DNA of 64,000 nt from Melieria omissa (lineage: Eukaryota > Arthropoda > Insecta > Diptera > Ulidiidae), in contig OZ020267.1 in assembly GCA_963971225.1 (NCBI GenBank), positions 101,246,536-101,310,535 of the forward strand. Reading direction: 5' to 3'. The notes under the pieces are model-generated. The model saw only the letters and a program-made list of their open reading frames with translations. It made no database searches and had not been told where the DNA came from. The translations under genes were made by a program, and so were the position numbers. Within the stretch, counting starts at the first letter, position 1. Each line of letters begins with the position of its first letter. Shown here one piece after another: positions 689-58,510 of this stretch.

Positions 689-702
689 GCCTAAAAGTAT
701 GC
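689..702 (-). promoter_or_regulatory. Su(Hw)-like insulator motif, exact 14-mer, inside the solo LTR
   Basis: The minus strand reads GCATACTTTTAGGC with no mismatch to the consensus shared by the other sites in this window. It lies in the presumed U3 of the solo LTR. In Drosophila, Su(Hw) is a multi-zinc-finger insulator protein that binds such sites, best known from the gypsy retrotransposon. Binding here is inferred from sequence only. Confidence 0.65.
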
Positions 703-755
703 TTGGAAAAGCATTCATGCTTAGCACAGCACAGAGTGCCACATTGTTACAATAC

Positions 756-1585
756 TTATAAAAAAAATAAAAAATACAAATGCAAAATAATAGCTAACGA
801 TTGATTTGTTTTGATGGACTTTTGCCACTGTTATGAGTTTTCTCTTTTGACATGTGATAGTGACACTTTTAGCTTACTTTAGAAGCAAATTAACGGGAAT
901 TTCGGTTCCAGCTTCCATTTAGGATTGAAATATGAAAATAAATCCGACAAGACGAGCTCTAACGAAGAACTTAACTCGCACGTATCAAAATTGATGTAGA
1001 AAAATCCGTTCTGCAGAACAGATTTTTCATTCCAAGTTGACAATGTTCTATTCAACGTATTGAAGTTAGTGACTACTAAATCAAAATCAAAACCAAAGCA
1101 AAACAAATGGATATGTCTCTGAATAATCCAACCACTTAGTCTTTTTCAGGGTTTACCACATTTTCGTGATTTAAAAATGGCGCCCAAACTCGAATTAATT
1201 GACGTTGACGTATCCAGTCAGATCTCCCTTCGTAATGAAGTTCGGTGTTGAGCCTCTGAATAGATTGAAAGCCATTCTGAGAGACCTAACAAGGATGTTC
1301 GATATTTAGACTCTGTGTGAATTGAAAGAGATTCCAAGTGATTCTAAGAGATCTAACGCAACGAATCAAAGTTTACTATATTCATCTCAAAAGCAATGAA
1401 GTTTCTCTGGTGATGAAAAATGAATCATTTACCATAACATTTAACCAAAAAAATGATGATGCAAGCGTATTGAAGCAACACAAACCACATTGAAACCTGA
1501 ACTTCACCAAAAAGTATTATCAGGTGTCTCTGCTTACGCTACGTCTCTGCTTTTAAGTTTGTCACACTAAATGATGATTTAATTA
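756..1585. other. AT-rich non-coding stretch, nothing recognised
   Basis: Only short open frames are present, with no recognisable domain. No repeat structure or RNA gene was seen. Confidence 0.5.
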
Positions 1586-2482
1586 CACAGTGCAACAAAT
1601 TCAAACAAAATTTCGAGGGACAAGGTCAAACCCATCTCATTCGATAGAGGACGAGTTTTTTTTTAAATTAAATGGCGGCTTAAAGCCCCTTCCCGAAACT
1701 TTTAAAACATCATACCTCTTGACTCAAATGTCAGAAAGGAATCATTTTTACGTCAAGTCGATGACACAATATCCTTTTTGGAAAAATGTAATGAAAAAGG
1801 ATATGAAGGACCTCAATAAAATTTTAATCCTTGAATATCCTGGAACCCGTGAGAGCTAAATTTACATAAGTGACTTCTGGTATAAAAACATTCAAAGATC
1901 TATACTGCATATTAATTTCATTTCAATCACTTTAACTGTTAAGCTACTACAGCGTTTTAAAAATTATACACTGCTAAATTCATTTTTTTTGTACAAAATA
2001 TCTCGTAGTTGCTTCCAAAAAACATCGAATGTAGCAAAGCACATTTTTTAATCGTTGTAGAGTCTTAACTTTAAAAGTTATTCACATGAAATTTATAAGC
2101 AGTATAGATGTTTGAATGCTTTTTCACCAGAAGTCGTTTATATAAATTTAGCTCTCACAGTTTCCAGGATATTCAAGGATTAAAATTTTATTGAGGTCCT
2201 TCATATCCTTTTTCATAACATTTTTCCAAAAAGGATAATGTTTCATCGACTTCATTTCATTAGCTTTCATTTGCCGTAAAAATGATTCTTTTCTGACATT
2301 TGAGTCAAGAGATATGATGTTTTAAAAGTTTCGGGAAGGGCTTTAAGCCACCATCTTTAAACTCAATTTAAAAAAAAACTCGAACATTCCGGGAAAAATC
2401 CCTTGGCACTTTTTCATCTACTGAGGTCCTCTATCGAATGAGATGGGTTTGACCTTGTCCCTTTTTTCAGTGTTGCACTGTG
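1586..2482. mobile_element. Foldback-type element with long inverted arms
   Basis: The sequence from CACAGTGCAAC (1586-1596) recurs as its reverse complement ending at 2482 (GTTGCACTGTG). The arms stay similar over roughly 370-450 bp. Shared words include GACAAGGTCAAACCCATCTC near both ends, and the AGGATATGAAGGACCTC segment and its complement nearer the centre. The arms have diverged by small indels. The short open frame at 1590-1859 lies wholly inside the left arm and is not a recognisable protein. A clean target duplication is not evident; both flanks are TTAAT-rich. The superfamily is unknown. Confidence 0.7.
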
Positions 2483-2509
2483 TTATTAATTGACTGGCAC
2501 GACCGCCCG

Positions 2510-2803
2510 CTTAAGCGAGACTAAGGCGTAGCTTCCCGCAACCACCCGTGTTGTTCGTGTGAATTTGTACGCAGGTGGAAGGGACCTACCAGTTTTATGC
2601 CGGTTCCGAACGGCAGGTTGGGAGCTCTTTCATAAGCAATTTTTACTCTCAGAGGTTTGCCGTTTCCAGCTGAGGGGACAGCCACCGAAAGAGAAAACGA
2701 GTTTTCTCGTTACTTTTTTAGGTGTTATTACAGGCAGTATTTGAACCCGGGTCGCTGCCTTCGACTCGCGGTCCAACGCACTAACCAACTGAGCCACGGC
2801 GGC
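2510..2803 (-). mobile_element. tRNA-derived SINE
   Basis: Read on the minus strand, the element begins with a tRNA-like head of about 70 nt (2733-2803). The head has an A-box-like TGGCTCAGTTGG (complement of 2785-2796) and a B-box-like GGTTCAAATAC (complement of 2737-2747), the two internal RNA polymerase III promoter elements. About 230 nt of unrelated body follows, towards 2510. A real tRNA gene is less likely because the head runs on into this body and the acceptor stem does not close well. Both ends are approximate. Confidence 0.65.
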
Positions 2804-2810
2804 TGATGAT

Positions 2811-4885: not shown

Positions 4886-4900
4886 GCTGGAAAGATAAAT

Positions 4901-6029
4901 TTTTTTTTTTTTTTTTTTATATTTAACGAGGAGGAAGCATCGAAAGCCTTAACCCCGTCAGTGTGAGACTTTAACACACTAAACCTCCTCACGTCATGTA
5001 CCGATTACCCCTCCGGACACTACCGTCAAGTTTTTCGTCGGAGGGCGGATTTGAGCCCTAGGCTCATCGTTTGTCGCTGTTCTAGTGCGGTTTGTCTCAG
5101 CTGCACTTGCTTGCCCTACCATCTGCCTGTCAGCTAAATAACCGCCCTGTTCGGTTCGTCAACCACACCACCCGGTTGGCACTATGTCCCGTCTGTTGGT
5201 CGCCGTACTAGAGTCGTTCCTCTCTGATGCCTGCGCTGGTCCTCAGCTGCTGTTGCCGGAAGCGCGCCGTCGCTGCTCGGCCTTCCTCAGCTCATTGTAG
5301 ATTAGTACCGCCGAATCGCTCACCGCATTCCATACGGCTCGCGAGTTTGCCATCATGGACGTAAGATTTTGCGGGCTAATGTCCTCTTCCGCCAACGCAT
5401 TGATGTGACGTCGGACCGCTGCAAAACGAGGGCAGTGGAACAGCACATGCTTCGCGTCTTCGTCTACCTGGCAGACCGGGCATAGTGGCGACTCGTCGTG
5501 CCCGAATCGGTGCAAGTAGCTGCGGAAAGCTCCATGGCCGGTGAGCAGTTGTGTTAAATGAAAATTTAACTCGCCGTGGTTGCGCCGCACCCATTGCTCG
5601 ATTTTGGGGATTAGGGTGTGCGTCCACCTGCCCTTTGATGAGCTGTCCCAGCGCTCCTGCCAGCTGAGTATTGACGCCGCTCTCTCCGCCGCCGTTCTGC
5701 CGCCAGGGGGCCCATTGCGCTCCTTTTGGCTATGCAATCGCCTGCATTCATCAGCCAGGATGTCAATTGGGACCATTCCCGCCAACACTAGCGCTGCCTC
5801 ATCCGACGTCGTGCGGAAAGCGCTGATGACTCTCAGTGCGGAGAGTCTGTAGACGCTCTGGAGCTGCCGCCTATTTGCTTTTATTCGCAGTGACGGGGCC
5901 CACACTGGTGCGGCATATAGTAGCACTGAGCTTACTACCTTCGCCAGTAGAAGCCTTCTGCTGCTCCTTGGACCACCCAGATTGGGGAGCATCCTCGAGA
6001 GCGCGCTGCACACTCCCGCTGCCTTCTGC
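4901..6029 (-). mobile_element. 5'-truncated R1-type non-LTR retrotransposon insertion
   Basis: The insertion is bounded by a target duplication GCTGGAAAGATAAAT (4886-4900 on the left, 6030-6044 on the right). A long T run just inside the left copy is the poly(A) tail of a minus-strand element. The retained DNA is a 3' UTR (about 4920-5242) plus the end of the second open reading frame. Truncation at the right edge with a preserved target duplication is the usual product of target-primed reverse transcription. The open frame is intact, so the insertion is fairly young. Confidence 0.9.
5243..6028 (-). pseudogene. C-terminal part of a non-LTR reverse transcriptase ORF2 (truncated)
   Basis: About 260 codons are open to a stop at 5243. 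The reading frame enters from the host target duplication, so the ATG at 6058 is not a real start. The segment matches the region downstream of the reverse transcriptase palm. It has a basic helical stretch (around AKVVSSVLLYAAPVWAPSL) and then a C-terminal zinc-knuckle of the form CPVC-x7-H-x4-C (CPVCQVDEDAKHVLFHC), followed by PRF as in R1-clade and related elements. The endonuclease and RT core are absent, so it cannot encode a working enzyme. The clade call (R1-like) rests on this C-terminal pattern and could be a neighbouring clade such as LOA. Confidence 0.8.
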
Positions 6030-6046
6030 GCTGGAAAGATAAATTT

Positions 6047-7270
6047 GTGTGTGTGCATGTGTGCAGCTTAATATGTCTGTGTTTGGTGTGTGTGTGTATG
6101 TATGTGTAAGTGAGCGCTTTCGCGTATTCACTTGTTATCTAAATTTGACAAGGCGTTGAGGGATGCGATGTCATGGCAGCAGTCAGTGCGCGCACAGCAA
6201 CCAGTCAGCTAGACCGCTTCATATCTAAGTCGGTGGCTGTGTTGTTGTTGATAGAACATGTGTCTGTGTGTGTGTATGTTTTGTGTGTCGTAAAATAAAT
6301 GCGCTGCTTTCTGCTGTGTCGCTTCATGCTTTGATGCCTTGATTTCTTGATAGGGGGGCGAACGCCAGCAGTTGCGTTATTATTTAATATCAGTCAACAG
6401 CAACAGCAATGCTGCAAGTGAGCCGCCAGTGGCTGTAAAGGATTTGCCAGGTTCAGTTTAATAACCTAAGGTTAGATGTTTGTTTTTATTGTGATTTCAT
6501 TAGGGCCCGACTGGCATTTGTCCTGCGATAAGCAACTTTTGTTTTCTGCTCCAAGCTTATTATTTTTGCGTTTCTCTAATGCGTCAAGATTTATGACATT
6601 TGCCTTACAGATTTTATTGCCTGCACGCCTTATTTGATGTGATGTGCCTATACATGGGTTTGTGATAATAAAAGCGAACGAAGCTGTTGCCTAATGAGGT
6701 CAATCACCGAGCGTATGTTATTTGCGTAATTTATCAAAAAACTATGCATGCGCCTCAAAATATGCCACACAGATTGGCAATTTTTTATGACATGTTGGGT
6801 TGAGTTGACTTGAATAAATCAAGTAAGGGGTTGAACTTTTTTTTTATTGTAATTTGCTAAGGATTTGGACTTGATAAAGATTTTGTATGGAATATAAAAA
6901 AGTTAGGTTAGGTTGGGTTCAACTTGTTGATGAACACTGTTGATTTTCTAGCGGCACCAGATGGAGTTTCTTAGGCGTTCAGCGCGAGTGAAATAATGAT
7001 TGCTTAGGATGCTTGTTTTTTTTGGAAGACTAAAGGAGAGAAAAAAGAAAGGAAAAGTAAATTAAGTAATTAAAACAAAATTAGTTAATTTTTGAACATT
7101 ATGATTTCAGTGGCCTAAGGCACTTAGCAAATCATGTCGAGATATTTGGCTTCAGCCGTAGCAAACTTCACGTGAAGGAGGATGAGGTAGGAGGTAGTAA
7201 GAACTAAATACGAAACCGACCTGACGCGCAATCGAGTGCCACTCAATTTTTTTAAATAAGTACTTTCTAA
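6047..7270. other. Non-coding stretch with TG-rich simple repeats and a GGTTA run
   Basis: TG-rich tracts lie near 6043-6110 and 6255-6290. TTAGGTTAGGTTGGG sits at about 6902-6917. No gene is recognised. Confidence 0.45.
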
Positions 7271-8269
7271 TACTTAACTGCCTTTTATATTTTTTCAATG
7301 GGGATGGTCTAGTAAGTTTTTGAAAAATCTGAGATTGTCATTGAAAAGTTTGTCATTTTTTACCATAAACGTGCTTAGAACATTTTGATGTTCAAGCGCT
7401 ATTTGTGTTGATTACACTGACTTGAAAAATTCATCTCAGTCAAAAATGGATTTAACTCGTGAACATTTTCGAGCAATAATGTTTTACGATTTCCGAAGTG
7501 AATTATCTCAACAATAGTGCTTCGATCGCCTTCATTCGGCATTTGGTGATGAAGCATCAACCCTCAAGACAATTTATAACTGGTTTAACAAATTCAAGCA
7601 TGGTCGCCATTGGCTCCAGGACGAATTTCGTTAAGGTCGTCCAAAATTGGTGATTGTGCCAGAAACCATTGATGCTGTGCGTGAACTGATAATGAAATAT
7701 CGTCATGTGATATACCGTGAGATAAAGGCATCCTTGGGCATTAGTTCCACGGCCGTGCATTCAATATTACATAAACATTTAGCTGTCAGAAAGATTTGTT
7801 CTCGTTGGATCGCGCATAGTTTGCAATCGCTCAAAACAAGGTTCGTGTCGGTTGGTGCAAAGAAATGATGGAACAATTTGATCGCAGTACTTCGAAAGAC
7901 GTTTATAAGATCGTGACAGGTGACGAATCATGGATATATGCGTATGAGCCCGAAACAAAACAGCAATCGATCGTGTGGGTCTTCCAAGACGAGCCAAATC
8001 CAACAAAAGTTGTTCGGGCACGCAGCACATCGAAGCAAATGGTCGCCTGTTTCTTTCGCAAAACTGGTCATATGGCTACTGTGCCGTTAACGCAACGTAG
8101 AACCATCAATTTCGAGTGGTACACAACAATTTGTTTGACAGAAGTGTTCAATAAAATACGGAAAAACAACCGCCGACGCCGAATCATTCTTCACCAGGAA
8201 AATGCGCTTTCTCACACATCGGTTCAAACAACCGCTTATTTGATCGAACAAACTATCGATTTAATGGGT

Positions 8270-8505
8270 TGTTTAATCGCTTCGGCGCGGAGCGGGATAA
8301 ATAATACGCGTTGGGTGCGGTTAGAGTTTTCGGTCTTTATTATATGACGTCTGAATAACGAATGTACAAAAGAATACATGAAACATTGAACGAGACAAAC
8401 GGCCGAAGCCGGGGAGCAGAAAATAGGGGGAAATATGAGCACAAAAGGAGAAGGAAAGGAAGGGATTAGAGGTGGGATCGACAGATCACTTGAGACAGCA
8501 CTCAT
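8270..8505 (-). repeat. 3' LTR of the BEL/Pao element (approximate inner edge)
   Basis: The outer edge is set by the junction with mariner at 8269/8270. In element sense it ends CCGAAGCGATTAAACA. An AATAAAG polyadenylation signal lies about 65 nt before the end. The inner edge is a guess placed near the pol stop codon, because no second LTR copy is available to compare. Confidence 0.55.
8335..8341 (-). terminator. LTR polyadenylation signal AATAAAG
   Basis: The minus strand reads CATATAATAAAGACC inside the 3' LTR, about 65 nt upstream of the element end. Confidence 0.5.
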
Positions 8506-8780: not shown

Positions 8781-8808
8781 ATATAAATTGGCTGCATTGC
8801 CAAAGGGC

Positions 8809-13631: not shown

Positions 13632-13850
13632 CTACAAAAAATTTTGTTATTTTGAATACGAATTATTTAACACTCGTCGTTTAACACTTCAAAACTATAA
13701 AAGTATCCAAAATTCTTCTTCTTCTTCCAAATTATTATGTGTTGCATAGTTTTGGGATAATCTGTAACAAAATGAATTAAAGCTCAAATATCTTTTAAAT
13801 TCAGTTAAATTGATCTTTTATAAATGAAAAATATGAATAAACATATTATT
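13632..13850. other. AT-rich spacer between the mariner and the motif array
   Basis: About 220 bp of AT-rich DNA separates the mariner end from the Su(Hw)-motif array. No gene or repeat was recognised. Confidence 0.4.
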
Positions 13851-13854
13851 AAAG

Positions 13855-13868
13855 GCATACTTTTGGGC
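13855..13868 (+). promoter_or_regulatory. Su(Hw)-like site, 1 mismatch
   Basis: GCATACTTTTGGGC. First unit of the array. Confidence 0.6.
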
Positions 13869-13935
13869 TTCAGTTGAATTTAAAGGGTTACAACGTTAGC
13901 GTCAAATTCATATAAATTAATTTTGTGTTTTTGTG

Positions 13936-13949
13936 GTATACTGTTAGGC
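13936..13949 (+). promoter_or_regulatory. Su(Hw)-like site, 2 mismatches
   Basis: GTATACTGTTAGGC. Confidence 0.45.
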
Positions 13950-14049
13950 CAAACTTGGATTTAGATACTTAGAGGAACGTTAAATAGGTTTGATTGTGAA
14001 CTTAAGGCAACTTACCCACAAAACTACAAATTTGTACAAAATTTTTGTA

Positions 14050-14063
14050 GCATACTTTTAGGC
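14050..14063 (+). promoter_or_regulatory. Su(Hw)-like site, exact
   Basis: GCATACTTTTAGGC preceded by TTTTTGTA. Confidence 0.7.
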
Positions 14064-14181
14064 TGTTATTGAAATGAACAATTTTGAAGAACGTTGAACT
14101 GATTTTGAATTCAAGGCCACAACTTCGATTTTGAATTCAAGGCAACTAACTCATAAAATTAAAAAATTTTGTACTTTTGTA

Positions 14182-14195
14182 GCATACCTTCAGGC
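14182..14195 (+). promoter_or_regulatory. Su(Hw)-like site, 2 mismatches
   Basis: GCATACCTTCAGGC. Confidence 0.5.
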
Positions 14196-14396
14196 TAATA
14201 TTGATTTAACAATTTTAAATGAAATTGTAATCGTTCAACTTTAAATACAGGGTTCATAAAATATACATTTTTATATTCTTGTTACGTTCCTTTAGGCTGA
14301 TATTAAATTTAAGAATTCTGAAGAACGTTGATTCGATTTTGAACTAAAAGTAACTTAAAAAAGCAACCATAAAATATAAAAATGTGTATTTTTGTA

Positions 14397-14410
14397 GCAT
14401 ACCTTAAGGC
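14397..14410 (+). promoter_or_regulatory. Su(Hw)-like site, 2 mismatches
   Basis: GCATACCTTAAGGC. The identical variant recurs 210 bp downstream. Confidence 0.5.
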
Positions 14411-14606
14411 TAATATTAAATTTAACAATTTTGAATGAAATTGGAATCGTTCAATTTTGAACACAGGTTTCATAAAAATATAAATTTTTATATTCTTGTC
14501 ACGTTTCTTTAGGCTGATATTAAATTTAACAATTCTGAAGAACGTTGATTCGATTTTGAACTAAAGGCAACTTAACCATAAAAATATAAAAATTTGTACT
14601 TTTGTA

Positions 14607-14620
14607 GCATACCTTAAGGC
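14607..14620 (+). promoter_or_regulatory. Su(Hw)-like site, 2 mismatches
   Basis: GCATACCTTAAGGC, same variant as at 14397. Degenerate versions at 14284, 14501 and 14710 alternate with it. Confidence 0.5.
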
Positions 14621-14816
14621 TAATATTAAATTTAACAATTTTGAATAAATTTGGAATCGTTCAATTATGAACATGAGGTTCAAAAAAATTAAAATTATAT
14701 ATTCTTGTTATGTTCCCTTAGGCTAATATTGAATTTAACAATTCTGAGGAACGTTGAATTGATTTGATTTTGAACTAAAGGCCACTAACTCATATAAATA
14801 GGTGTGTACTCTTGTA

Positions 14817-14830
14817 GCATACTTTTAGGC
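14817..14830 (+). promoter_or_regulatory. Su(Hw)-like site, exact
   Basis: GCATACTTTTAGGC, last unit of the array. Confidence 0.7.
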
Positions 14831-14866
14831 TAATACTGAATTTAATAATTCATTAGAGACAACTCC

Positions 14867-18900: not shown

Positions 18901-18919
18901 TGGTTACGTTATAAAAGTT

Positions 18920-22285: not shown

Positions 22286-22290
22286 CAATT

Positions 22291-35860: not shown

Positions 35861-38400
35861 AAATAAACATTTAGACATATTTTCAGTTTTGGCTTAATTC
35901 CGGCATTCAAGTTAATTTATGAGCTTTAATGTATTCAGAGACCAATGGTAGAATCTCATGGCAAATATTTTTGTGGCACATTTTGTCCCTAAAAAATCCT
36001 GTTTTATAGGATATTTATGGCATTTTAGCAAAAAAGGGTCAAATTGACCCATTCAAATAGGAGCTACAGGGTTAAAATGCTCCACAAAAATGTTCTTCGT
36101 AGTATTTTACATCAAGTTGCTGAACACATCATATACCTAAAATGTGAGTTAACATGGTTTTCGTATGCCAATTCACCATAAGAATGTGGAAAAAGGGGAA
36201 AACTTTGAGCCCCCTAAAAATAATTCAGACGCCGATACACGTAAATTGTTGTTTGCCCCTTTTACCAGAATCAGTTGTTAGAACCTTGTTATAAAAACAA
36301 AATTTTATTTTGTTGTGCAGTGTAATTAGTATATAGTAATTTTGTATTCATTATAATGAAACGCATTTAGATCTGTACAAATAGGTCACAGAAGGCGCAA
36401 AAGTGTTAAATAAATCAATGTTTAATCTGTAATTATGGACAAATGCCATAATCGATATTGCGCAAACAAATTTTCTGTGCATTTTTTTCATCCAATTCGC
36501 CCAACAACAATAAACAAAATGTAAAATTAAATCTTTCTCAAAATTTAAAAAAATTCGATTCGCCCAAAAACAATAAAAAATTTAAAATAAAACCTTTCTT
36601 AAAACATCAGTACGAAAGGGGTTAAAAGGTAGTGGATTTAAGAATGATGATGCGAAAAAACATTCATTTTGAGAAGCGACTCTACCAAACTCGACAAAAC
36701 CATCTTTTGTTCTTCGTTTAAGGATTTGAATATTGAAAAATCCTCAACGAAAGATTGAAAGATTTGGGAGCCTGTGAGTTAAGATGAGCTAACATAGGTT
36801 GTAAAGCTGCGCTGATGATTAGCGAGCGATGGCTTATGTGCGGCCAATATTATGGATCTCCATAGATAAGTGATTTTTTGGAGAATTTTCGATGGTGCAA
36901 AGTTCACCGGATCATCTAATATAAACGGCCTTTAGTTGTGAATTTTGTATTCAATTTTTTACTATTAAGTTTGTTATTATTTTCTGAAAACCCAGCCACC
37001 GATAATTGCCGAAGAAGTCAACTTAGACGGAGTAGATACTCCGACTCGTTTCAACATTTCTGAAGAAATTCCCCTGAAGTTGCCGAAGACAATTAAGTTC
37101 TACTTTCTAATGGCTTAACATAAGCAGGGACACCTCAATGAACCCACCAGGTGGTCTGCTTTGATCAATCACCTGACAGGATAACAGAAGGCAGTTAGTG
37201 ACCGATAAAGATGCCAATGAACACAGATTCCTCGGTACTCATATCTATCAAAATTTCCACCTGCTGCGCACAAACATAGATCGATTTATTTATTGATTAT
37301 TTACTTATAACTTATTTTATAAACTAACAAATTTTGACTTCTAATTCCATCGAAAAATGTTCAGTCATTCCAACTGCTCTTCAGCTTAGCTCAGCTGTTA
37401 CGAACATAAACTTTAACGCCTGCAGCTACATACCTCACAAATATTTGTTTGTCTGTGTTTGTGCAGAGCAGCGCAAAATCAAATGCAGCAATCAGCTCGA
37501 CCAATTTTAAACGTTATTGTTTTTATTTATTTTTCTTGTTTTTATTTGTTTGATTTGGACATGAATTGGCAACGTGTAAAGTCAGCAACGCGAGCACATG
37601 TGTGCAGATTTGATTTTCTGCCATTGGCAACAACATTGCTAAAACAATGTCTTTGTAAATAAGCAGCGAAAGGAAACGAAATGAAACGAAAGCGCAGCAG
37701 AGCGAAACGCATTCAGCGAAGTACGCTACTAACTTCGTTCAGCGCAGATTGCATAAGCTCGATGCGACATTTGTTGTTGCTTAAACTTGCAGCAAAATCT
37801 TGTTTCTGTATTGTTTTCGCACAGCCAACGCCCTCAATTGTAAAGTTTGCTTGGCAGTTACTTGTGAAAATTATTAGCTTGTTGTTAGTTAGTGTTTTTA
37901 TTGTTTTTGTGATGGTGCATTGTGCTGTTTTAGTTTTGTGTGCCACCAATACCAGCGACCCTTCTTTCTCTTCATATGCAACATGACACTTTTGCGTACA
38001 CATTCTTTCAGCTTCGAATGAAAACAAAAAATTGCATATAGATAGGCAAATTACATAGTGGGAACGTGTGAGAGGGACCTTGCTTTACATATATGTGTGT
38101 ACGTGTGTGTATGTGTGGGTGTCAATGGTGTAAATTGAGTGCGCGTACGTGCGTTGCAATCCAAGTGTCCACATTGAAGGCGCATTGAAATTGCACGCGT
38201 GCGGCTTCTCTCATCTCTTCAGCTTATGTCTGTTATTGTTGTTGTTGCTGTTGTTGTAGCCATTATCACTACAGTATCCTAAAAGGGCATTGGTTTGCAT
38301 TATTTGTACTCTTAAAACCAAAAATGTTGCTTTGATGCACTAACAATTTATCCATTGAGTTGTAGTGCCTAAAAGTATGCTTTAGCTTTTAGTTTTAATG
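35861..38400. other. Non-coding stretch; perfect 15-bp palindrome at 36036-36050
   Basis: GGGTCAAATTGACCC at 36036-36050 is a perfect palindrome. Two related GATTCGCCCAA-type segments occur near 36495 and 36557. An exact Su(Hw)-like site lies at 38367-38380. No gene is recognised. Confidence 0.4.
38367..38380 (-). promoter_or_regulatory. Su(Hw)-like site, exact, isolated
   Basis: The minus strand reads GCATACTTTTAGGC. It directly precedes the AT hexamer-like tract. Confidence 0.6.
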
Positions 38401-39404: not shown

Positions 39405-39408
39405 TTAA

Positions 39409-41844: not shown

Positions 41845-41848
41845 TTAA

Positions 41849-42057
41849 ATTAAAATTTAAAATTTTAGCCAAAACTAAAATTAAAGTAAAAACAAAGTAA
41901 AAAAAAAAATTAAATAAACACAAAAGTAAAACTAAAAAAAATTAAAATAAAAAAATAATAAAAAAGAAATGAAAACAATAGAACATAAAAATTAAAATTA
42001 AAATATAAAAAATAGGAACAATAACATAAAAATATAAAATAATAAATACCAAAAAAT
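41849..42057. repeat. A-rich low-complexity tract, right part
   Basis: Continuation of the hexamer-like AT tract after the piggyBac-type insertion. It ends where the LTR-like unit begins. Confidence 0.8.
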
Positions 42058-46100: not shown

Positions 46101-49100
46101 CGCGTGCTGGTGCGGCCAAGCTGGTGCTCACGTGGCTGCTGCTGCTGCTGGCACCGCGCGTGGTGGTTCTCAGGCCACTTCTCGACCGCGTCCTGGTGCG
46201 GCCAAGCTGGTGCTCACGTGGCTGGCTGCTGCTGGCACCGCGCGTGGTGGTTCTCCGGCAACTTCTCGAGCGCGTGCTGGTGCGGCCAAGCTGGTGCTCA
46301 CGTGGCTGGCGCTGCTGCTGGCACCGCGCGTGGTGGCTAGGAGGAAACTTCTCGAGCGCGTGCTGGTGCGGCCAAGCTGGTGCTCACGTGGCTGCTGCTG
46401 CTGCTGGCACCGCGCGTGGTGGTTCTCAGGCCACTTCTCGACCGCGTCCTGGTGCGGCCAAGCTGGTGCTCACGTGGCTGGCTGCTGCTGCTGGCACCGC
46501 GCGTGGTGGTTCTCAGGCAACTTCTCGAGCGCGTGCTGGTGCGGCCAAGCTGGTGCTCACGTGGCTGGCTGCTGCTGGCACCGCGCGTGGTGGTTCTCAG
46601 GCAACTTGTCGAGCGCGTGCTGGTGCGGCCAAGCTGGTGCTCACGTGGCTGGCTGCTGCTGGCACCGCGCGTGGTGGTTCTCCGGCAACTTCTCGAGCGC
46701 GTGCTGGTGTGGCCAAGCTGGTGCTCACGTGGCTGGCGCTGCTGCTGGCACCGCGCGTGGTGGCTAGGAGGAAACTTCTCGAGCGCGTGCTGGTGCGGCC
46801 AAGCTGGTGCTCACGTGGCTGCTGCTGCTGCTGGCACCGCGCGTGGTGGTTCTCAGGCCACTTCTCGACCGCGTCCTGGTGCGGCCAAGCTGGTGCTCAC
46901 GTGGCTGGCTGCTGCTGCTGGCACCGCGCGTGGTGGTTCTCAGGCAACTTCTCGAGCGCGTGCTGGTGCGGCCAAGCTGGTGCTCACGTGGCTGGCTGCT
47001 GCTGGCACCGCGCGTGGTGGTTCTCAGGCAACTTGTCGAGCGCGTGCTGGTGCGGCCAAGCTGGTGCTCACGTGGCTGGCTGCTGCTGGCACCGCGCGTG
47101 GTGGTTCTCCGGCAACTTCTCGAGCGCGTGCTGGTGTGGCCAAGCTGGTGCTCACGTGGCTGGCGCTGCTGCTGGCACCGCGCGTGGTGGCTAGGAGGAA
47201 ACTTCTCGAGCGCGTGCTGGTGCGGCCAAGCTGGTGCTCACGTGGCTGCTGCTGCTGCTGTCACCGCGCGTGGTGGTTCTCAGGCCACTTCTCGACCGCG
47301 TCCTGGTGCGGCCAAGCTGGTGCTCACGTGGCTGGCTGCTGCTGGCACCGCGCGTGGTGGTTCTCCGGCAACTTCTCGAGCGCGTGCTGGTGCGGCCAAG
47401 CTGGTGCTCACGTTGCTGGCGCTGCTGCTGGCACCGCGCGTGGTGGCTAGGAGGAAACTTCTCGAGCGCGTGCTGGTGCGGCCAAGCTGGTGCTCACGTG
47501 GCTGCTGCTGCTGCTGGCACCGCGCGTGGTGGTTCTCAGGCCACTTCTCGACCGCGTCCTGGTGCGGCCAAGCTGGTGCTCACGTGGCTGGCTGCTGCTG
47601 CTGGCACCGCGCGTGGTGGTTCTCAGGCAACTTCTCGAGCGCGTGCTGGTGCGGCCAAGCTGGTGCTCACGTGGCTGGCTGCTGCTGGCACCGCGCGTGG
47701 TGGTTCTCCGGCAACTTGTCGAGCGCGTGCTGGTGCGGCCAAGCTGGTGCTCACGTGGCTGGCTGCTGCTGGCACCGCGCGTGGTGGTTCTCCGGCAACT
47801 TCTCGAGCGCGTGCTGGTGCGGCCAAGCTGGTGCTCACGTGGGTGGCGCTGCTGCTGGCACCGCGCGTGGTGGCTAGGAGGAAACTTCTCGAGCGCGTGC
47901 TGGTGCGGCCAAGCTGGTGCTCACGTGGCTGCTGCTGCTGCTGGCACCGCGCGTGGTGGTTCTCAGGCCACTTCTCGACCGCGTCCTGGTGCGGCCAAGC
48001 TGGTGCTCACGTGGCTGGCGCTGCTGCTGGCACCGCGCGTGGTGGCTAGGAGGAAACTTCTCGAGCGCGTGCTGGTGCGGCCAAGCTGGTGCTCACGTGG
48101 CTGCTGCTGCTGCTGGCACCGCGCGTGGTGGTTCTCCGGCAACTTCTCGAGCGCGTGCTGGTGCGGCCAAGCTGGTGCTCACGTGGCTGGCGCTGCTGCT
48201 GGCACCGCGCGTGGTGGCTAGGAGGAAACTTCTCGAGCGCGTGCTGGTGCGGCCAAGCTGGTGCTCACGTGGCTGCTGCTGCTGCTGGCACCGCGCGTGG
48301 TGGTTCTCAGGCCACTTCTCGACCGCGTCCTGGTGCGGCCAAGCTGGTGCTCACGTGGCTGGCTGCTGCTGCTGGCACCGCGCGTGGTGGTTCTCAGGCA
48401 ACTTCTCGAGCGCGTGCTGGTGCGGCCAAGCTGGTGCTCACGTGGCTGGCTGCTGCTGGCACCGCGCGTGGTGGTTCTCAGGCAACTTGTCGAGCGCGTG
48501 CTGGTGCGGCCAAGCTGGTGCTCACGTGGCTGGCTGCTGCTGGCACCGCGCGTGGTGGTTCTCCGGCAACTTCTCGAGCGCGTGCTGGTGTGGCCAAGCT
48601 GGTGCTCACGTGGCTGGCGCTGCTGCTGGCACCGCGCGTGGTGGCTAGGAGGAAACTTCTCGAGCGCGTGCTGGTGCGGCCAAGCTGGTGCTCACGTGGC
48701 TGCTGCTGCTGCTGGCACCGCGCGTGGTGGTCCTCAGGCCACTTCTCGACCGCGTCCTGGTGCGGCCAAGCTGGTGCTCACGTGGCTGGCTGCTGCTGCT
48801 GGCACCGCGCGTGGTGGTTCTCAGGCAACTTGTCGAGCGCGTGCTGGTGCGGCCAAGCTGGTGCTCACGTGGCTGGCTGCTGCTGGCACCGCGCGTGGTG
48901 GTTCTCAGGCAACTTGTCGAGCGCGTGCTGGTGCGGCCAAGCTGGTGCTCACGTGGCTGGCTGCTGCTGGCACCGCGCGTGGTGGTTCTCCGGCAACTTC
49001 TCGAGCGCGTGCTGGTGTGGCCAAGCTGGTGCTCACGTGGCTGGCGCTGCTGCTGGCACCGCGCGTGGTGGCTAGGAGGAAACTTCTCGAGCGCGTGCTG

Positions 49101-49785
49101 GTGCGGCCAAGCTGGTGCTCACGTGGCTGGCTGCTGCTGGCACCGCGCGTGGTGGTTCTCAGGCAACTTGTCGAGCGCGTGCTGGTGCGGCCAAGCTGGT
49201 GCTCACGTGGCTGGCTGCTGCTGGCACCGCGCGTGGTGGTTCTCCGGCAACTTCTCGAGCGCGTGCTGGTGTGGCCAAGCTGGTGCTCACGTTGCTGGCG
49301 CTGCTGCTGGCACCGCGCGTGGTGGCTAGGAGGAAACTTCTCGACCGCGTCCTGGTGCGGCCAAGCTGGTGCTCACGTGGCTGCTGCTGCTGCTGGCACC
49401 GCGCGTGGTGGTTCTCAGGCCACTTCTCGACCGCGTCCTGGTGCGGCCAAGCTGGTGCTCACGTGGCTGGCTGCTGCTGCTGGCACCGCGCGTGGTGGTT
49501 CTCAGGCAACTTGTCGAGCGCGTGCTGGTGCGGCCAAGCTGGTGCTCACGTTGCTGGCGCTGCTGCTGGCACCGCGCGTGGTGGCTAGGAGGAAACTTCT
49601 CGACCGCGTCCTGGTGCGGCCAAGCTGGTGCTTACGTGGCTGGCTGCTGCTGCTGGCACCGCGCGTGGTGGTTCTCAGGCAACTTCTCGAGCGCGTGCTG
49701 GTGCGGCCAAGCTGGTGCTCACGTGGCTGCTGCTGCTGCTGGCACCGCGCGTGGTGGTTCTCAGGCAACTTGTCGACCGCGTCGT
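43127..49785. repeat. GC-rich higher-order minisatellite, about 78 copies of 84-87 bp
   Basis: The basic unit contains GTGCGGCCAAGCTGGTGCTC, ACGTGGCTG, a CTG run of variable length, GGCACCGCGCGTGGTGG, then either TTCTCMGGCAACTTCTCGAG or CTAGGAGGAAACTTCTCGAG, and GCGTGCTGG. Unit lengths are 84, 86 or 87 bp. Variants recur in fixed orders, making higher-order blocks of 427 bp (5 units), 256 bp (3 units), 343 bp (4 units) and 172 bp (2 units). Copies of the same variant are nearly identical, so homogenisation is recent. All three plus-strand frames are open for hundreds of codons, which is a property of the unit and not evidence of a protein. GC content is far above the surroundings. Confidence 0.95.
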
Positions 49786-50677: not shown

Positions 50678-51040
50678 AGGCTTGATTACACGTAACAAGT
50701 AGAGTGACGAGACATCAAAATGGTACTAGGCCGAAAGAATTGGGATAGCGAGCAAAAGCGACGAGTTGTTCAAACGTATTTTGAGACGTGGCGAGTCAGT
50801 TCGGTTTTACAATGCACAAAATGAACTAAGCAACTCGCGCAATTAAACTCAACCGAGCGAAAAGTGGTGTGTGACGCATACCGCATGTGACGAGCGATTC
50901 CGCGTATCGCTGCGAAAAAGAGGAAAATTTAATGGCAAAGTAGTGCTCGGCCTAGCAAACAAAATGTGATTCTAGTGACTCTCTCGCCACTTTCATCGGT
51001 CACTGACTCAATCAAGAACTCGTTACGTGTAATCAAGCCT
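50678..51040. mobile_element. MITE copy 1 of a tandem pair (363 bp)
   Basis: The terminal inverted repeat starts AGGCTTGATTACACGTAACR and ends with the complement ACGTGTAATCAAGCCT. The right flank is TTA (51041-51043); the left flank is TTC, which could be a mutated TTA. The body is about 90 percent similar by eye to copy 2. Confidence 0.8.
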
Positions 51041-51043
51041 TTA

Positions 51044-51486
51044 AGGCTTGATTACACGTAACGAGTCGAGTGACGAGACATCAAAATGGTACTAGGCCGA
51101 AAGAATTGGGATAGCGAGCAAAAGCGACGAGTTGTTCAAACGTATTTCGACACGCGGCGAGTCAGTTCGGTTTTACAATGCACAAAATGAACTAAGCAAC
51201 TCGCGCAATTAAACTCAACCGAGCGAAAAGTGGTGTGTGACGCATACCGCATGTCACGAGCGATGCCGCATGTGACGAGCGATTGCACGAATCGCTGCGA
51301 AAAGAGAAAAATATAACGGTAAAGTAGTGGTCGCTCGGCCTAGCAAACAAAATGTGATTCTAGTGGCTCTCTCGCCACTTTCATCGATCACTGACTCAAT
51401 CAAGAACTCGCCTTACCGTTTAGACGAAACGAGTACTCGTTCGAGTTGCTGTCTTCTCACTCTACTCGTTACGTGTAATCAAGCCT
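51044..51486. mobile_element. MITE copy 2 of a tandem pair (443 bp)
   Basis: It has the same inverted ends as copy 1 and is flanked by TTA on both sides (51041-51043 and 51487-51489). It shares the left TTA with the right flank of copy 1, so one copy inserted into the target duplication of the other. It is longer because it keeps an extra CGTTTAGACGAAACGAGTAC-type stretch near its right end and a duplicated CGCATGTCACGAGCGAT segment. A TTA duplication points to a Harbinger-like source. No coding capacity. Confidence 0.8.
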
Positions 51487-51543
51487 TTAGTGTTGATTTT
51501 ATGGGTAAGCAGAGAGAGTTGGAATTCCAGTCAGTATTTTATT

Positions 51544-51557
51544 GCATACTTTTAGGT
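51544..51557 (+). promoter_or_regulatory. Su(Hw)-like site, 1 mismatch
   Basis: TTGCATACTTTTAGGT. First of three sites spaced 132 and 107 bp. Confidence 0.6.
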
Positions 51558-51675
51558 CAAAGTTTACATGGGCAACAAAATTGTGGCTTTTATTTCATAA
51601 AACTTTTTTGCAAGTATTCAGAGATCATTATTGCTGTTTACCGCTCAAGTTTCAATTTGTAGTCATTTTTACATT

Positions 51676-51689
51676 GCATACTTTAAGGC
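51676..51689 (+). promoter_or_regulatory. Su(Hw)-like site, 1 mismatch
   Basis: CATTGCATACTTTAAGGC. Second of the three-site cluster. Confidence 0.6.
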
Positions 51690-51782
51690 AAAAGTTTATT
51701 TCCATTAAGAATATGATTGATTTTATCCAATACAGGTTGATCAGAAAATTTAGTGAGGTAGTAAATTTGCAGTAATTTCATT

Positions 51783-51796
51783 GTATACCTTTAGGC
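51783..51796 (+). promoter_or_regulatory. Su(Hw)-like site, 2 mismatches
   Basis: ATTGTATACCTTTAGGC. Third of the three-site cluster. Confidence 0.5.
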
Positions 51797-51899
51797 TATT
51801 TTTATAAGTTGTTGTTGTTGTATAACAGTTGGCTGTTTTTATAAGTTATACTAGTAATTAATAAGAAATAAATTAATATATTAAATTAAATTAAATATT

Positions 51900-53630: not shown

Positions 53631-53639
53631 CACACCAGA

Positions 53640-53790
53640 GCCAAATGTCTCAGAACTTATTGGTGCAAACACATACACAGAGAAAGTGGGATTTGAGCAG
53701 ACACACAACAAATGGTCCGTCCTATCATTGTTTTCCACACAATCTGGACACAGCGCACTGTCAGACAAGTCTGACGAATTTACTTAGTAG
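53640..53790 (-). pseudogene. Probable non-LTR ORF2 zinc-knuckle fragment
   Basis: The minus strand reads DSALCPDCVENNDRTDHLLC followed by VCSNPT. CPDC-x8-H with a following Cys pair resembles the Cys/His knuckle at the C-terminus of non-LTR reverse transcriptase ORFs, where SNPT commonly follows. The frame is short and flanked by stops. A chance match is possible. Confidence 0.4.
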
Positions 53791-53982
53791 AGCTTAAAAT
53801 TTTACTTAGTTGAGCTTAACAATTTGCTGATTGCATTCTAAAGTTGGCATCAATTACGTCTCTACGAGACCAAAGCATGGCCGTGGTTATCGATGATAGA
53901 AGACAAGTTATTTCTTAGACGCTTTAGTTGGTCTTTTCAAAAATTACTAGTGATGCAGTAAATTTACAATAATTTTTACATT

Positions 53983-53996
53983 GCATACTTTGAGGC
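53983..53996 (+). promoter_or_regulatory. Su(Hw)-like site, 1 mismatch
   Basis: CATTGCATACTTTGAGGC. It faces the minus-strand site at 54234. Confidence 0.55.
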
Positions 53997-54233
53997 TGAA
54001 GTTCATATGATTAAGAACATTGTTGCTTTTGTATTCACAGAGCTCTGTGCCATGGGGTCCATGCTCAAAGGTCCATCTCTCGTCCCATGATATCTGAAGC
54101 TGTGGTAAAGAAGAAGAAAGACAGATAGACGATAGAACGCTTTCATGCCACTAATCCGCTTTACAAGAACTCCCCTCACCTCCCCTCCCCTAACGCTCTA
54201 CTTTGCAACTTTTCGAGGTTTATGTTCAATTTA

Positions 54234-54247
54234 GCCTAAAAGTATGG
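54234..54247 (-). promoter_or_regulatory. Su(Hw)-like site, 1 mismatch
   Basis: The plus strand reads GCCTAAAAGTATGG, the complement of the motif, 251 bp from the plus-strand site at 53983. Confidence 0.55.
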
Positions 54248-54249
54248 TA

Positions 54250-56050
54250 CAAAAATTACTATCTATAAGCACCTGAATTGATTTGAATATAAAAATACAG
54301 CAATCATTGTTACTTTTGAGTTACTGAAAACTATTTTATGTAAAATAAAATTTGTTATATCTTTGCCCATTTTCCATTATGAAATATTTTCTACTCGTAA
54401 GCACTCAACATAAACCAATAGTGCGCATAAATTTTAAATGGTTTACAACAAACTCTCAGTGTCTGAAACCTGGACTAAAGTTGTCTTAAAAATATTTATT
54501 GCATCTAAAAAAACAAAAAAATGTTAATAACACTTTTAGTACGCAGTTAAATTTGCCAGCAGAAAACTTTTCACTTCCACAATCAACCAACCAGCCAACC
54601 AAGCAATGCACTCACCCCACCCACCGCGCGTGCTCACTGTGCCAACTGACCACAGCAGACATCAGCGAAAAGTGTTTTTTTTTACAGAACTAAAAACACG
54701 GTTGCACTTTATTTCGAGTGTGCGAATTATTTGCGCAAACAAATGCCACTGCAAAAATTTGCACAAAAACAAAAAATTCCAACAAAAACGGAATGCTGCA
54801 AAAAATTAAAAGCATATAAAATATTTTACTTCGAAAAAAAAATTTATAAATAAATTCACACAGCTAACGGTGGCAAAAAAACTAGAAAATTAAACGTAAA
54901 GCATAAGCAAAGCTGCAAAAAATGAAAAGTGCCAAAGTGTCCGCATGTGTATGTGTGTGTGTGTGCGCGTCAAATGGAATGCTGGAAAAAATTGAAAAAT
55001 AGAAACATAAAAATCACAGAAAATACCAAAGAAACAACAATGCAGCGAGACCATAATGTGGGTCACACTGACAGTCGCTCGCCGCACAGTGCGGCATCGT
55101 GTGCAATGTGCGAGAATAAAGAGAAATCACAAATGAGCGAGGCACCGCCGACACTGCTGTGAGCACCGCTGTGCTGCACTGCGGCCACTACGACAACAGA
55201 CGTTGTTGGGCTGTGGGCTGTGGCTGCAGCTAAAATATTTGCATTAAAATTTATTTCAGCAAAACAACTGAAAAATACTTCTTGCTGCGCTGAAAAGTAT
55301 ACTAAATAAATAAAAGTTTTGAAATTTATAACAGTTGCAGGCTTTTAGGCGCCAAAGTAGTGGCGTTGCACGAAGGTGCAAAGAGAAGTGAAATTTGTGT
55401 GGGCGTTGAGGAGGAAGTGGCGGCGAAGGTGAGTTGAAAGGAGTGGGGTTAGAGTTGGGGGTAAGAAGAAGAGCAACTGTACGAGCATAGATAAGGAATG
55501 AGTCTGAAGTCTGAAGAATATCCGTTAGTGCGCTGAAAAGTATACTAAAGAAATAAAAGTTTTTCAAGCGCCGACGTTGAATGAAGATGCAACGAGAGGT
55601 GAAAGCCATAGCCGGATGAGGAACGACAAAGTGCCCCCAAGCCAAATTCGATTGTTATATTTTTTTTAAATATTATTTTTAGGAAAAGAAGCAATAAGGT
55701 TTAGTTCTTAATAGTTAATAAATAATTCCCGATGTGGGAGAATCAATTAAAATTAAAATTGTAATAAAATTCTATTATAAAAATTATTATAAATAATTAA
55801 TTAAAAAAAGTTATGGAATTAATTTTTTTTTCGATTAATTTTCCGATTTCCAGGAAAATCGGTGGAACTCTGAAAAAATTAAATAAAAAATAAAAAATTT
55901 GTTGTATTTTAAAATTTTTGTATTCTCTTCTTCTTCTTTCTTTTTGTTATTCTTTTTAAAGAATTTTTTTATTCAGTTAAAATTTTGGTGCAACCTCAAA
56001 ATATTGTAACGATGGGGCACTCTGTTGCTGTGCTATGCATGAATGCTATT
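54250..56050. other. Non-coding stretch with a diverged direct repeat
   Basis: GCGCTGAAAAGTATACTAAA followed by AAATAAAAGTTTT occurs near 55289 and again near 55532. TG run at about 54947-54965. No gene is recognised. Confidence 0.4.
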
Positions 56051-56054
56051 AGAA

Positions 56055-56068
56055 GCATACTTTTAGGC
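56055..56068 (+). promoter_or_regulatory. Su(Hw)-like site, exact
   Basis: GCATACTTTTAGGC followed by CCGC. Confidence 0.6.
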
Positions 56069-56880
56069 CCGCACTTTAGAGTACGGCAAATATGCTATAA
56101 TTCCGATATGGCAAGGATGGTTCGCGAAGGTGATGAGCTGTGCGAGAATGTTCGAGCATTGTCCAATTGGAATGTGCTAGAACAGTCGGCGCGATAACCA
56201 GACAGGTGTGTAGATTTGTAAATAAAGTGATTGCTGGTTTTGGAATGCGGTTTGCGTTGAGTAATTGAAGTGGTTTTATTTTCAAGCACAATCCAGATAC
56301 GAACTTAGAGAAGTCATTTCCGAAACAATATGTTTTATGTAAGAAGTGAACCAGAAAAAATTTAGAATTTTTAAGGACACATTAAAAACAGTAATAGTCT
56401 GATTTTACTAAAGTAAATTGCAACTTATTATTATTATTATTTCACTTCGGAGTATTTTCTTTGTGTTCCATTCTGATTGATTGCAGTGAAATAGGCATTC
56501 CCAGGCAACTGCTTGAAGTCCGCCTTAGAGTAGGTTTCATCATCGAGAATCATGTAATCGAACTAGGTTACGTAATCGTCATACAGTTTTTGAGCCCGCG
56601 TCTTCGCTATTTTTTCTTTTGCTTCCGACCGGTCAGGCACTTTCTCCTGTTCGTAGGTCCTTAACCCTTGACTTCGCTAATATCGCATCTCTACTTATTT
56701 GAACAATTAAAATTTTTTTTTTTAATTTTTTACATTTCTTTTGATATTAATTTTTTCAAGAAAATATATTTTTAATATTAATTTATTCAGTACAAATATT
56801 ACAACTTTAAAATAATTTATGCAATTAACACAGTTCAACTTTTCAGTCATCTGAATTTAACATAAAAACAAAATTTGTTG

Positions 56881-56894
56881 GCATACTTTTAGGC
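56881..56894 (+). promoter_or_regulatory. Su(Hw)-like site, exact
   Basis: TTGGCATACTTTTAGGC, paired with the weaker site 108 bp downstream. Confidence 0.65.
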
Positions 56895-56988
56895 AGCCGT
56901 TCAAGTACCTAATAACTTCAAAGTATACAAGCTCACTTGAAAAATGTTTGTTGCATGAAACAAGATACATGAATATTATATGTTCTTA

Positions 56989-57002
56989 GCATACTTTCCG
57001 GC
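56989..57002 (+). promoter_or_regulatory. Su(Hw)-like site, 2 mismatches
   Basis: TTAGCATACTTTCCGGC. Confidence 0.45.
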
Positions 57003-58490
57003 TTGTAAACTTTTTTGCTGAAATTTATTGCGAGGCCAACTGCCGCTGTTTAAAAACTCATCAGCTTTAAACATGCCCATAAGACAATGCTGTGCAAATG
57101 AGCGTAAAAATAGCATTTCCATTGCACACTGCTGGGCGAGAGGGCGGCGCAGACACAACATGAAAACAGCATGTTTGCGCTAATGTCACTGGCGGCTGTC
57201 TGTGTGTGTTTTTTTTGCGCTCGCATTTTAAATAAAATGCACGTCGCTGCCAACTTTAATTGACATACATTTCACATATGCACATATGTAATTGCGGCCT
57301 AAGCTGCCGCTCGCTTTCATTCGAACATCTCAGCTCGCAGGCTGCGTCGGCTTGTGCTCGTTACGAGTAGAGCTTCGCGTTTTCAGCTTTGTTTGGTTTG
57401 TTTTATTTTATTTTTTGTTTCTTTAACTGCTTTTGTGTGTACATATTTTGCTGCTTTTTGTCAACATGCCAACATGTCTTCCTTCCGGTTTCCGATACAC
57501 ATACACACACACACATACATATGCAATATGTATATTGTATATAATAATACATACGAGGATTGTGCAATACAGCAAGCAAATTCGCAATCACTGCTCTTCG
57601 CTCTGCTCCCACTTATTTACATTTGTATGTGTGAAACTCATCAACAACTGCGGCAGCAGCAGCATCACTTATGTCACACTTACACACATTCATGCAACCA
57701 GCAACAAATATGTGTTCATTTGTATGTCAGCTGCTTATAATTTTAATGCCAAGCAGCGACGAGAATAGAAAAAATCGCCTAAGCAGATAACATGAAAAAA
57801 AGTTGCGAAAAAATTCACACCCTAAGAAAAAGTTCGCAGCGAAAGCAATGCAAGATGTAAGGCCAGAAATTTACATGAATGAGTTTGGCGCTTGAATGTG
57901 GTGTACGCTTGCATCAAATACGCATACATGAACACAAACGCACACTCACACACACACACACATAAACTCTTACATATGTCTACATGTGAGGCAGAGCAGT
58001 CACATAAATTCCACCATTCAGCATTTTGCGTTGCTTACTGTTGGCTGACTGCTTACATGCTCAATAGCAACAACAACAATAACAACAACAACAACAATAA
58101 AAACAGCAGCAAAAATGGCAACTAGGGCGGTAATGGCAACACAAGATGTAGGACAAATTATTTATAAGTACGTAGATTTGTTCCATTTGTACGTGTCTGA
58201 GCGGGGCAACAGACGACAGACGTAGAGTAGAGAAGCCGGAAATGAAGAGGGGGTAGCAGAGATGTTTCCTGGCTGCTTGGGTATTTAATTCAACAGCTTT
58301 GCATTGTTGCTGTGTGGCATTTCTATTCTCCGATGTTCTTTGTTTTTGTCTTTGTCTTTTGTTTTGTTTTTATGATGACACTTGAAAGTTTACTGACATT
58401 TTTGGGTATTTTTGCTGAGAACAGAAATTTTCTTTAATTTGTTCATAAGCAACGAATGCGTTTTAATGTATAAAATTGTTGATTATATTA
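57003..58490. other. Non-coding stretch with simple repeats
   Basis: CA runs near 57503-57514 and 57945-57962; AACAACAACAAT tract 58067-58100. No gene is recognised. Confidence 0.4.
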
Positions 58491-58496
58491 AAATTT

Positions 58497-58510
58497 GCCT
58501 AAAAGTATGC
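58497..58510 (-). promoter_or_regulatory. Su(Hw)-like site, exact
   Basis: The plus strand reads GCCTAAAAGTATGC. A degenerate plus-strand match (3 mismatches) lies at 58576. Confidence 0.6.

Follow-up and report, generated by a model that had tools for sequence, protein, structure and literature searches.

The 64,000-nucleotide stretch of Melieria omissa DNA analysed here, referred to as the window (positions 101246536-101310535 of contig OZ020267.1, hereafter C1), is rich in a 14-mer, GCATACTTTTAGGC. We consider it probable that this word is the recognition site of the fly's own Su(Hw) protein, that it has been spread by a long terminal repeat (LTR) and by tandem duplication while also occurring as isolated sites, and that part of its copies is kept by selection.

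Both strands of the window were searched for the 14-mer, allowing up to two mismatches, and 20 matches were found. The initial annotation had listed 18 of these and had put the chance expectation at about 0.4. All 18 coordinates and mismatch counts were correct (seven exact, five with one mismatch and six with two), and the two further matches, at 6752(-) and 55337(+), carry two mismatches each. Dinucleotide shuffles of the window (n = 100) contained 0.63 matches on average (standard deviation 0.73, largest 2), near the earlier estimate, and letter-permuted 14-mers (n = 200) gave a mean of 0.31 and a maximum of 3 in the window itself. When the A after TTTT was left free (GCATACTTTTNGGC), 26 matches were obtained against 2.75 expected. 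The exact copies lie at 689(-), 14050, 14817, 38367(-), 56055, 56881 and 58497(-).

The 20 matches are not independent of one another. Those at 689 and 56055 lie in two copies of one LTR, those from 13936 to 14817 belong to one tandem array, and flank comparison showed the sites at 51544, 51676, 51783 and 53983 to be weakly alike (76-82% over 38-71 bp). Each of the other eight (6752, 13855, 38367, 54234, 55337, 56881, 56989 and 58497) has at most 25-48 bp around the motif in common with another site, simple A/T-rich sequence aside. With related copies collapsed, about 11 contexts are left in the window, and the exact 14-mer occurs in five of them: the LTR, the array, 38367, 56881 and 58497. 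A single repeat family as the source of all sites was ruled out by flank clustering. An Rfam scan of the window returned nothing at gathering thresholds.

Likeness to Drosophila Su(Hw) sites was scored with a 20-bp matrix, independent of the window, which was built from 15 of the 20 rows of D. melanogaster chromatin immunoprecipitation (ChIP) sites in Table 1 of PMC2374998; the five rows not used comprise three labelled as neighbours, one duplicate and one that gave no hit. The sites of that table include GTTGCATACTTTTAGGGATA. In the window, 17 positions scored at least 14 bits; 200 shuffles within 2-kb blocks averaged 0.725 such positions and never exceeded 5. The word reaches 23.5 bits in the window and 25.9 bits at locus L097 elsewhere on C1, and the core sequence of the Drosophila consensus is present in the window sites. 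The earlier identification of the word as the Drosophila Su(Hw) core is borne out by a matrix of ChIP-derived sites, scored against shuffles as had been proposed, and by the orthologue described below. As described in PMC5825117, an AT-rich module upstream of the core is bound by Su(Hw) fingers 10-12 and a GC-rich module lies downstream. The 20 window sites are T-rich at positions -9 to -4, several of them being related copies. On the downstream side the searched word itself ends in GGC, and nothing was conserved just after it in 37 representatives with independent flanks.

The genome also encodes a Su(Hw) orthologue. With Anastrepha Su(Hw) as query, one clear locus was found, at C1:40683278-40686012(-), in six colinear blocks (residues 14-198, 191-333, 330-381, 378-442, 488-706 and 703-779). 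The best block is 88% identical (289 bits), and the best match elsewhere in the genome reached 112 bits. Stops in the first and third aligned blocks were taken for introns. The D. melanogaster Su(Hw) query matches D. sechellia Su(Hw) at 99%; orthologues were found in Lucilia, Glossina, Musca, Anastrepha, Rhagoletis, Bactrocera and Teleopsis. The M. omissa protein is nearest to those of Bactrocera, Anastrepha and Rhagoletis (85-87% over 251-252 residues), with 81% for Eurosta, also a tephritid, and 83% for Lucilia. No clear orthologue was found in Apis and Anopheles according to PMC2374998.

Finger contact residues compared among Drosophila, Lucilia, Glossina and Bactrocera largely agree in fingers 2-9 and diverge in fingers 1, 11 and 12. 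In M. omissa, as read from 961 bases of the locus, fingers 4 and 8 are RYHR and VEVR, identical to Drosophila; fingers 5, 7 and 9 are RDNA, SVAK and QTQG (RDNS, AVAK and QTQT in Drosophila), and fingers 2 and 3 are SMSR and SNLL (TTSR and SALL). An apparent intron interrupts finger 6, finger 10 was read in part, and the contact reading covers most of fingers 2-9. On the readable fingers, a cognate protein with matching contact residues is therefore present in the same genome.

Across the assembly (490,334,835 bases, 164 contigs), the exact 14-mer occurs 6,613 times (3331 forward and 3282 reverse), compared with 0 + 1 for the word read backwards. With the free position opened (N), the counts were 3749 + 3670 = 7,419 against 2 + 4 = 6; an A follows TTTT in 6,613 of the 7,419, a proportion that the LTR family pushes upward. 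On average the genome has one exact copy per 74 kb, and the seven copies in the 64-kb window amount to about eight times that mean. A genome-wide density equal to that of the window, which the initial annotation had named as a result that would refute it, was not found, though the window had been picked for its density. As an arbitrary control, twenty 10-kb stretches spaced along C1 were chosen blind to the motif. With up to two mismatches allowed, 21 sites were counted, a single stretch (L097) contributing 14, and permuted words averaged 1.04 with a maximum of 6.

The contexts of the copies were sampled from 99 of 100 listed exact sites, all at one chromosome end (C1, 0.28-9.09 Mb; the site at C1:9072974 was not included). 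These and the seven exact window sites were clustered by their 190-bp flanks with the motif masked; neighbours less than about 380 bp apart overlap in their flanks and were grouped by nearness. The 106 sites fell into 37 flank groups. Of the sampled 99, 41 belong to the LTR family of the window, 11 to a second dispersed repeat and 21 to local arrays or pairs, and 26 were ungrouped. Scaled from this one-end sample to all 6,613 copies, these fractions would correspond to about 2,700 LTR copies and about 1,700 ungrouped sites. The second dispersed repeat carries the exact word mostly in the setting GATTGCATACTTTTAGGCATAAATAAAATAAATTTTG, and its members are L013, L014, L016, L028, L035, L063, L064, L066, L070, L079 and L080.

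The LTR is represented in the window by two solo copies. The first (372..751, minus strand) is 380 bp long, has TG...CA ends and is flanked on both sides by a 4-bp target duplication, ATAC; its exact site, GCATACTTTTAGGC, lies at 689..702(-). The second (56005..56327, plus strand) is shorter, at 323 bp, with the duplication ATAT on both sides and its exact site at 56055..56068(+). The terminal dinucleotides, the target duplications and the many copies identify the element as a solo LTR, and promoter and polyadenylation signals were checked in the first copy, where the site stands at LTR position 50, TATAAA at 205 and AATAAA at 300. The site is thus about 155 bp upstream of the TATA sequence, a place from which, by analogy with gypsy, the element could shield or tune its own promoter. 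Genome-wide, an LTR query that excluded the motif gave 3,206 first-look candidates, 40 of which were scored, and the roughly 2,700 copies extrapolated above are of the same order. In 20 copies found by flank alone, the best-scoring in the list and perhaps the youngest, the exact word was kept in 17.

The window also has a cluster of ten motif positions at 13744..14830(+), all in one orientation, with neighbours 81-132 bp apart and one gap of 210 bp. Within it, a tandem array at 13989..14850(+) has a unit of about 105 bp organised as a 210-bp dimer (Tandem Repeats Finder: 14124-14850, 3.4 copies, 83% matches), and GCATACCTTAAGGC is the array form of the word. Exact sites lie at 14050..14063(+), which scores 23.5 bits, and at 14817..14830(+), the last of the array; two-mismatch sites lie at 14182..14195(+), 14397..14410(+) and 14607..14620(+), and the positions at 14284 and 14501 have decayed to 4 and 5 mismatches. 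Upstream, the two-mismatch site at 13936..13949(+) sits in a decayed unit (13907-14083 is 71% like 14679-14850). The flank of the one-mismatch site at 13855..13868(+), of GGGC form, has no detectable likeness to the array; at this site and at 13744, which has three mismatches, the array spacing is kept while unit similarity is undetectable. A query of 13989-14850 matched only itself in the genome, which ruled out a dispersed satellite as the origin of the array.

A second group, of three sites at 51544, 51676 and 51783 (51544..51796, plus strand), is likewise in one orientation, with steps of 132 and 107 bp. Directly upstream, at 50678-51486, is a repeat in two nearly adjacent copies; it has the inverted end sequence aggcttgattacacgtaacgag and may be a small DNA transposon. 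The one-mismatch site at 53983..53996(+) is related to this group (53961-54030 is 79% like 51654-51724), and that at 54234..54247(-) has a 25-bp match to the array unit at 14040-14064. The exact site at 56881 and the two-mismatch site at 56989 (56881..57002, plus strand) are 108 bp apart on the same strand. The two-mismatch site at 6752..6765(-) scores 15.5 on the Drosophila matrix, and no repeat context was found for it. The exact site at 38367..38380(-) lies about 20 bp from an A-rich simple repeat and has no other flank relative; a long degenerate (TTAAAA)n array at 38402-39378 begins at that distance. The two-mismatch site at 55337..55350(+), with GCAGGC, scores 17.9 and falls just past a 53-bp repeat whose other copy lacks a site of this type. 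The two copies of that repeat (55268-55320 and 55511-55563, 85% identical) each carry a weaker Su(Hw)-like site on the minus strand, TTAGTATACTTTTCAGCGCA, of 17.4 bits. The last exact site is at 58497..58510(-).

Local arrays of the word also occur beyond the window. Among the 100 listed exact sites, 26 have another within 1 kb, where uniform placing expects 2.2 with a maximum of 8, and 15 of 17 neighbours closer than 1 kb are on the same strand. Within 500 bp, 23 of the 100 have another exact site, whereas occupied sites in Drosophila are generally single as described in PMC2374998. Locus L010 carries 27 one-strand sites with up to two mismatches in a 3.9-kb stretch; they form two blocks separated by 1.8 kb, and most follow one another at 43, 75 or 118 bp. 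At L011 seven sites are spaced by 109-126 bp, and L097 has a one-strand run at about 124 bp, mostly degenerate. Several clustered Su(Hw)-type sites were thus found at 13744-14830, 51544-51796, L010, L011 and L097. Two further duplications were observed. A 431-bp tandem duplication at L012:3295-4159, with 99% matches and a two-mismatch site in each copy, could be an array at birth. The duplication at L067:100-430, with a step of 211 bp, has two opposed sites 78 bp apart in each unit and is an exception to the rule of one orientation.

Pairs of exact words with starts 100-130 bp apart were then counted genome-wide, with facing orientation as the inverted control. Direct pairs numbered 53, at 37 loci, and facing pairs occurred at one locus only. 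Arithmetic on the exact counts gives chance expectations of about 1.4 direct and 0.7 facing pairs; facing pairs are therefore at chance level and direct pairs far above it. Spacer starts of different loci were unrelated in the 51 of 53 pairs compared (two at a locus already represented were left out), the only match being a single 14-bp hit, the motif itself. Eleven loci had more than one listed pair, and spacer matches within the locus were seen at 6 of them. A comparison of the 60-bp flanks within a pair against flanks across loci covered 20 of the 37 loci, drawn from those for which a single pair was listed. Ten pairs lay above the 97.5th percentile and one at 95.5, and nine were ordinary (11.6 to 91.3) despite their exact words. 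At L129, one of these nine, a third exact site has near flanks in common with the first, so that the pair may belong to a dimeric array.

To see how well the motif is kept, self-alignments were made in three arrays and 14-bp windows were ranked by identity; the ranked sites had been picked for consensus likeness, a mild bias in their favour. At L011 the motif was at or above the 90th percentile of conservation at all seven sites. At L010 this was so for 16 of 27 sites, and five fell below the 80th. The ranks support selection on the motif in these two arrays.

Several results weigh against the interpretation proposed here. In the window array, none of six sites ranked above the 69th percentile, and two half-units have lost the motif. 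In the sampled LTR copies the motif stood at the 77th percentile, other columns being 97% conserved as well. Conservation of the motif above its flanks as a general rule was thereby ruled out for the window array and the LTR, and the percentile ranks lend selection no support in either, the LTR copies being possibly young. The pair search demands exact motifs, and the pairs alone therefore cannot prove selection. Fifteen of the twenty arbitrary stretches held no site with up to two mismatches. Among 100 column-permuted matrices, the mean number of strong window matches was 0.68 but the maximum was 20, above the 17 of the true matrix, so that the shuffle and letter-permuted controls are the safer ones. 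In the 37 flank-independent representatives, T was modestly favoured at -7, -6 and -4, and A+T was raised only at -9 to -7. According to PMC2374998, no more than 2 pairs of strong sites in the Drosophila Adh region lie within 300 bp of each other, and a lone host site is able to insulate in transgenes; according to PMC2493044, no insulator role was seen for the two-site 1A-2 region when it was deleted in place.

The initial annotation had argued that the motif is kept while surrounding DNA diverges, through selection or spread as a binding site. The first part holds between contexts and in L010 and L011, and fits the nine ordinary direct pairs; it fails in the window array and the LTR. Spread is supported, with the LTR family and many unrelated local arrays carrying the word, and selection in L010 and L011 only. 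The same annotation had allowed that the motif might be part of an abundant repeat with no conservation above its flanks, and this describes some sites, those of the LTR and the window array, and not others.

The following course of events would account for these patterns. Su(Hw) would bind each word. An LTR retrotransposon carrying one site in U3, upstream of its promoter, would have dispersed about 2,700 exact copies (the one-end extrapolation). Short segments around a site would have been duplicated in tandem, repeatedly and at unrelated places, giving arrays of mostly one orientation with a spacing often of about 105-130 bp, and isolated sites, as in Drosophila, would form a third source. 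Selection may keep part of the array sites while spacer DNA decays. Arrays would offer several sites within one to four kilobases and may act jointly as strong insulators or boundaries, like the 12-site gypsy cluster, and single sites may be weaker boundaries or repressor sites. As described in PMC2374998 and PMC5825117, enhancers in Drosophila transgenes are blocked by the 12-site gypsy cluster, and where gypsy sites were reiterated, four were required. A more specific proposal is possible but must be put tentatively: in this fly lineage, Su(Hw) insulators may have arisen many times over and independently, each from one host site whose surroundings were duplicated in tandem. Such an array would begin as a nearly perfect duplication, and its spacer would then decay while selection keeps only the site, the orientation and the spacing of about 105-130 bp, so that the same architecture in unrelated sequence would stand at dozens to hundreds of loci.

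True Su(Hw)-type words might instead ride passively on copies of the LTR and on tandem duplications, selection on the motif being confined to a minority of old host sites. The 52 of 99 sampled exact sites that lie in the two dispersed repeats would fit such riding, as would the lack of excess conservation in the LTR and the window array. We nevertheless regard it as unlikely, since at 37 loci the same word is flanked by spacers that are unrelated between loci, few stretches of L010 and L011 are better kept than the motif, and 26 of 99 sites fall in no flank group; moreover, in nine of 20 direct pairs both motifs are exact although the flanks resemble each other no more than flanks of different loci do, and facing pairs are at chance level.

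It is less probable still that another protein binds the word and that the arrays are old satellite DNA in which a protein box has been conserved, working as the CENP-B box does in centromeric satellites. Such satellites would explain the mostly uniform orientation and similar period of the arrays, and the A after TTTT in 6,613 of 7,419 copies, with the same inflation by the LTR family. The scores of the word on the Drosophila matrix, which reach 23.5 bits in the window and 25.9 bits at L097, speak for Su(Hw) instead, as does the orthologue with like fingers, and the unrelated spacers of the 37 loci and the self-match only of the window array are unlike one satellite family. Very improbably, the arrays are remnants of retroelement 5' leaders, each a gypsy-like insulator that outlasted its element. 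In Drosophila, retroelement leaders do contain tandem repeats with arrays of protein sites, those of gypsy being Su(Hw) sites, as described in PMC7168160. The query with the window array, however, matched nothing else in the genome, which is evidence against a mobile source, and spacers show no match between the pair loci, although an element mobile until recently should have left related copies, as the LTR family has.

The proposed recognition of the word by the fly's Su(Hw), with spread by LTR and by duplication, has parallels in known systems. Su(Hw) sites are already known as clusters in gypsy and, in the Drosophila genome itself, mostly as single sites. The core GCATACTTTTNGGC is shared with endogenous Drosophila sites as described in PMC2374998, and isolated sites in unrelated DNA, represented by the 26 ungrouped ones, occur here too. 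With the gypsy insulator, as presented in the same paper, the arrays here share homotypic clustering of Su(Hw)-type sites within AT-rich DNA. Gypsy, however, has 12 sites in 340 bp, whereas spacing here is often about 105-130 bp (43, 75 and 118 bp in L010), and the window cluster, at 81-132 bp, lacks such tight spacing; array units here also differ from locus to locus, unlike the gypsy insulator. Multiplication of architectural sites by mobile elements is described for CTCF sites, which retroelements have spread in mammals (PMC3368268), and an insulator in the Idefix LTR is described in PMC7168160. The CTCF case comes closest, with the difference that here the LTR of a fly element bears a Su(Hw)-type site in U3. 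No description of many independent host arrays with unrelated units, or of an LTR-borne Su(Hw)-type site, in U3 or in thousands of copies, was found in the open-access literature, to which the search was confined, and this is weak evidence of absence.

The window contains other elements. A GC-rich tandem array at 43143-49782 comprises about 78 units of 86 bp, with higher-order periods of 343 and 427 bp; GC content reaches 68% at 44-48 kb in an otherwise mostly AT-rich window, and the array has long open frames on both strands. At 39408-41850 is a piggyBac-like element, whose open reading frame (ORF) at 39608-41149(-) has a transposase domain (Pfam PF13843, E 8.8e-73) and a closest relative 64% identical; matching terminal sequences beside TTAA-like ends were seen by eye. 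An 835-residue ORF on the minus strand at 8993-11500 matches Pfam DUF1759, a domain of BEL/Pao retroelement gag. Fragments at 5243-6067 and 7820-8347 gave weak matches, just under the Pfam cut-off, to zf-RVT (non-LTR reverse transcriptase tail) and Transposase_1 (mariner type).

Su(Hw) is a founding insulator protein, and the contrast between the clustered sites of gypsy and the lone sites of the Drosophila genome has so far been hard to probe. Many independent host arrays, together with an LTR that carries thousands of sites, would provide natural replicates within one genome. Array length, orientation and spacing could be compared with boundary strength in a single species, and the pace at which motif and spacer decay would measure selection directly.

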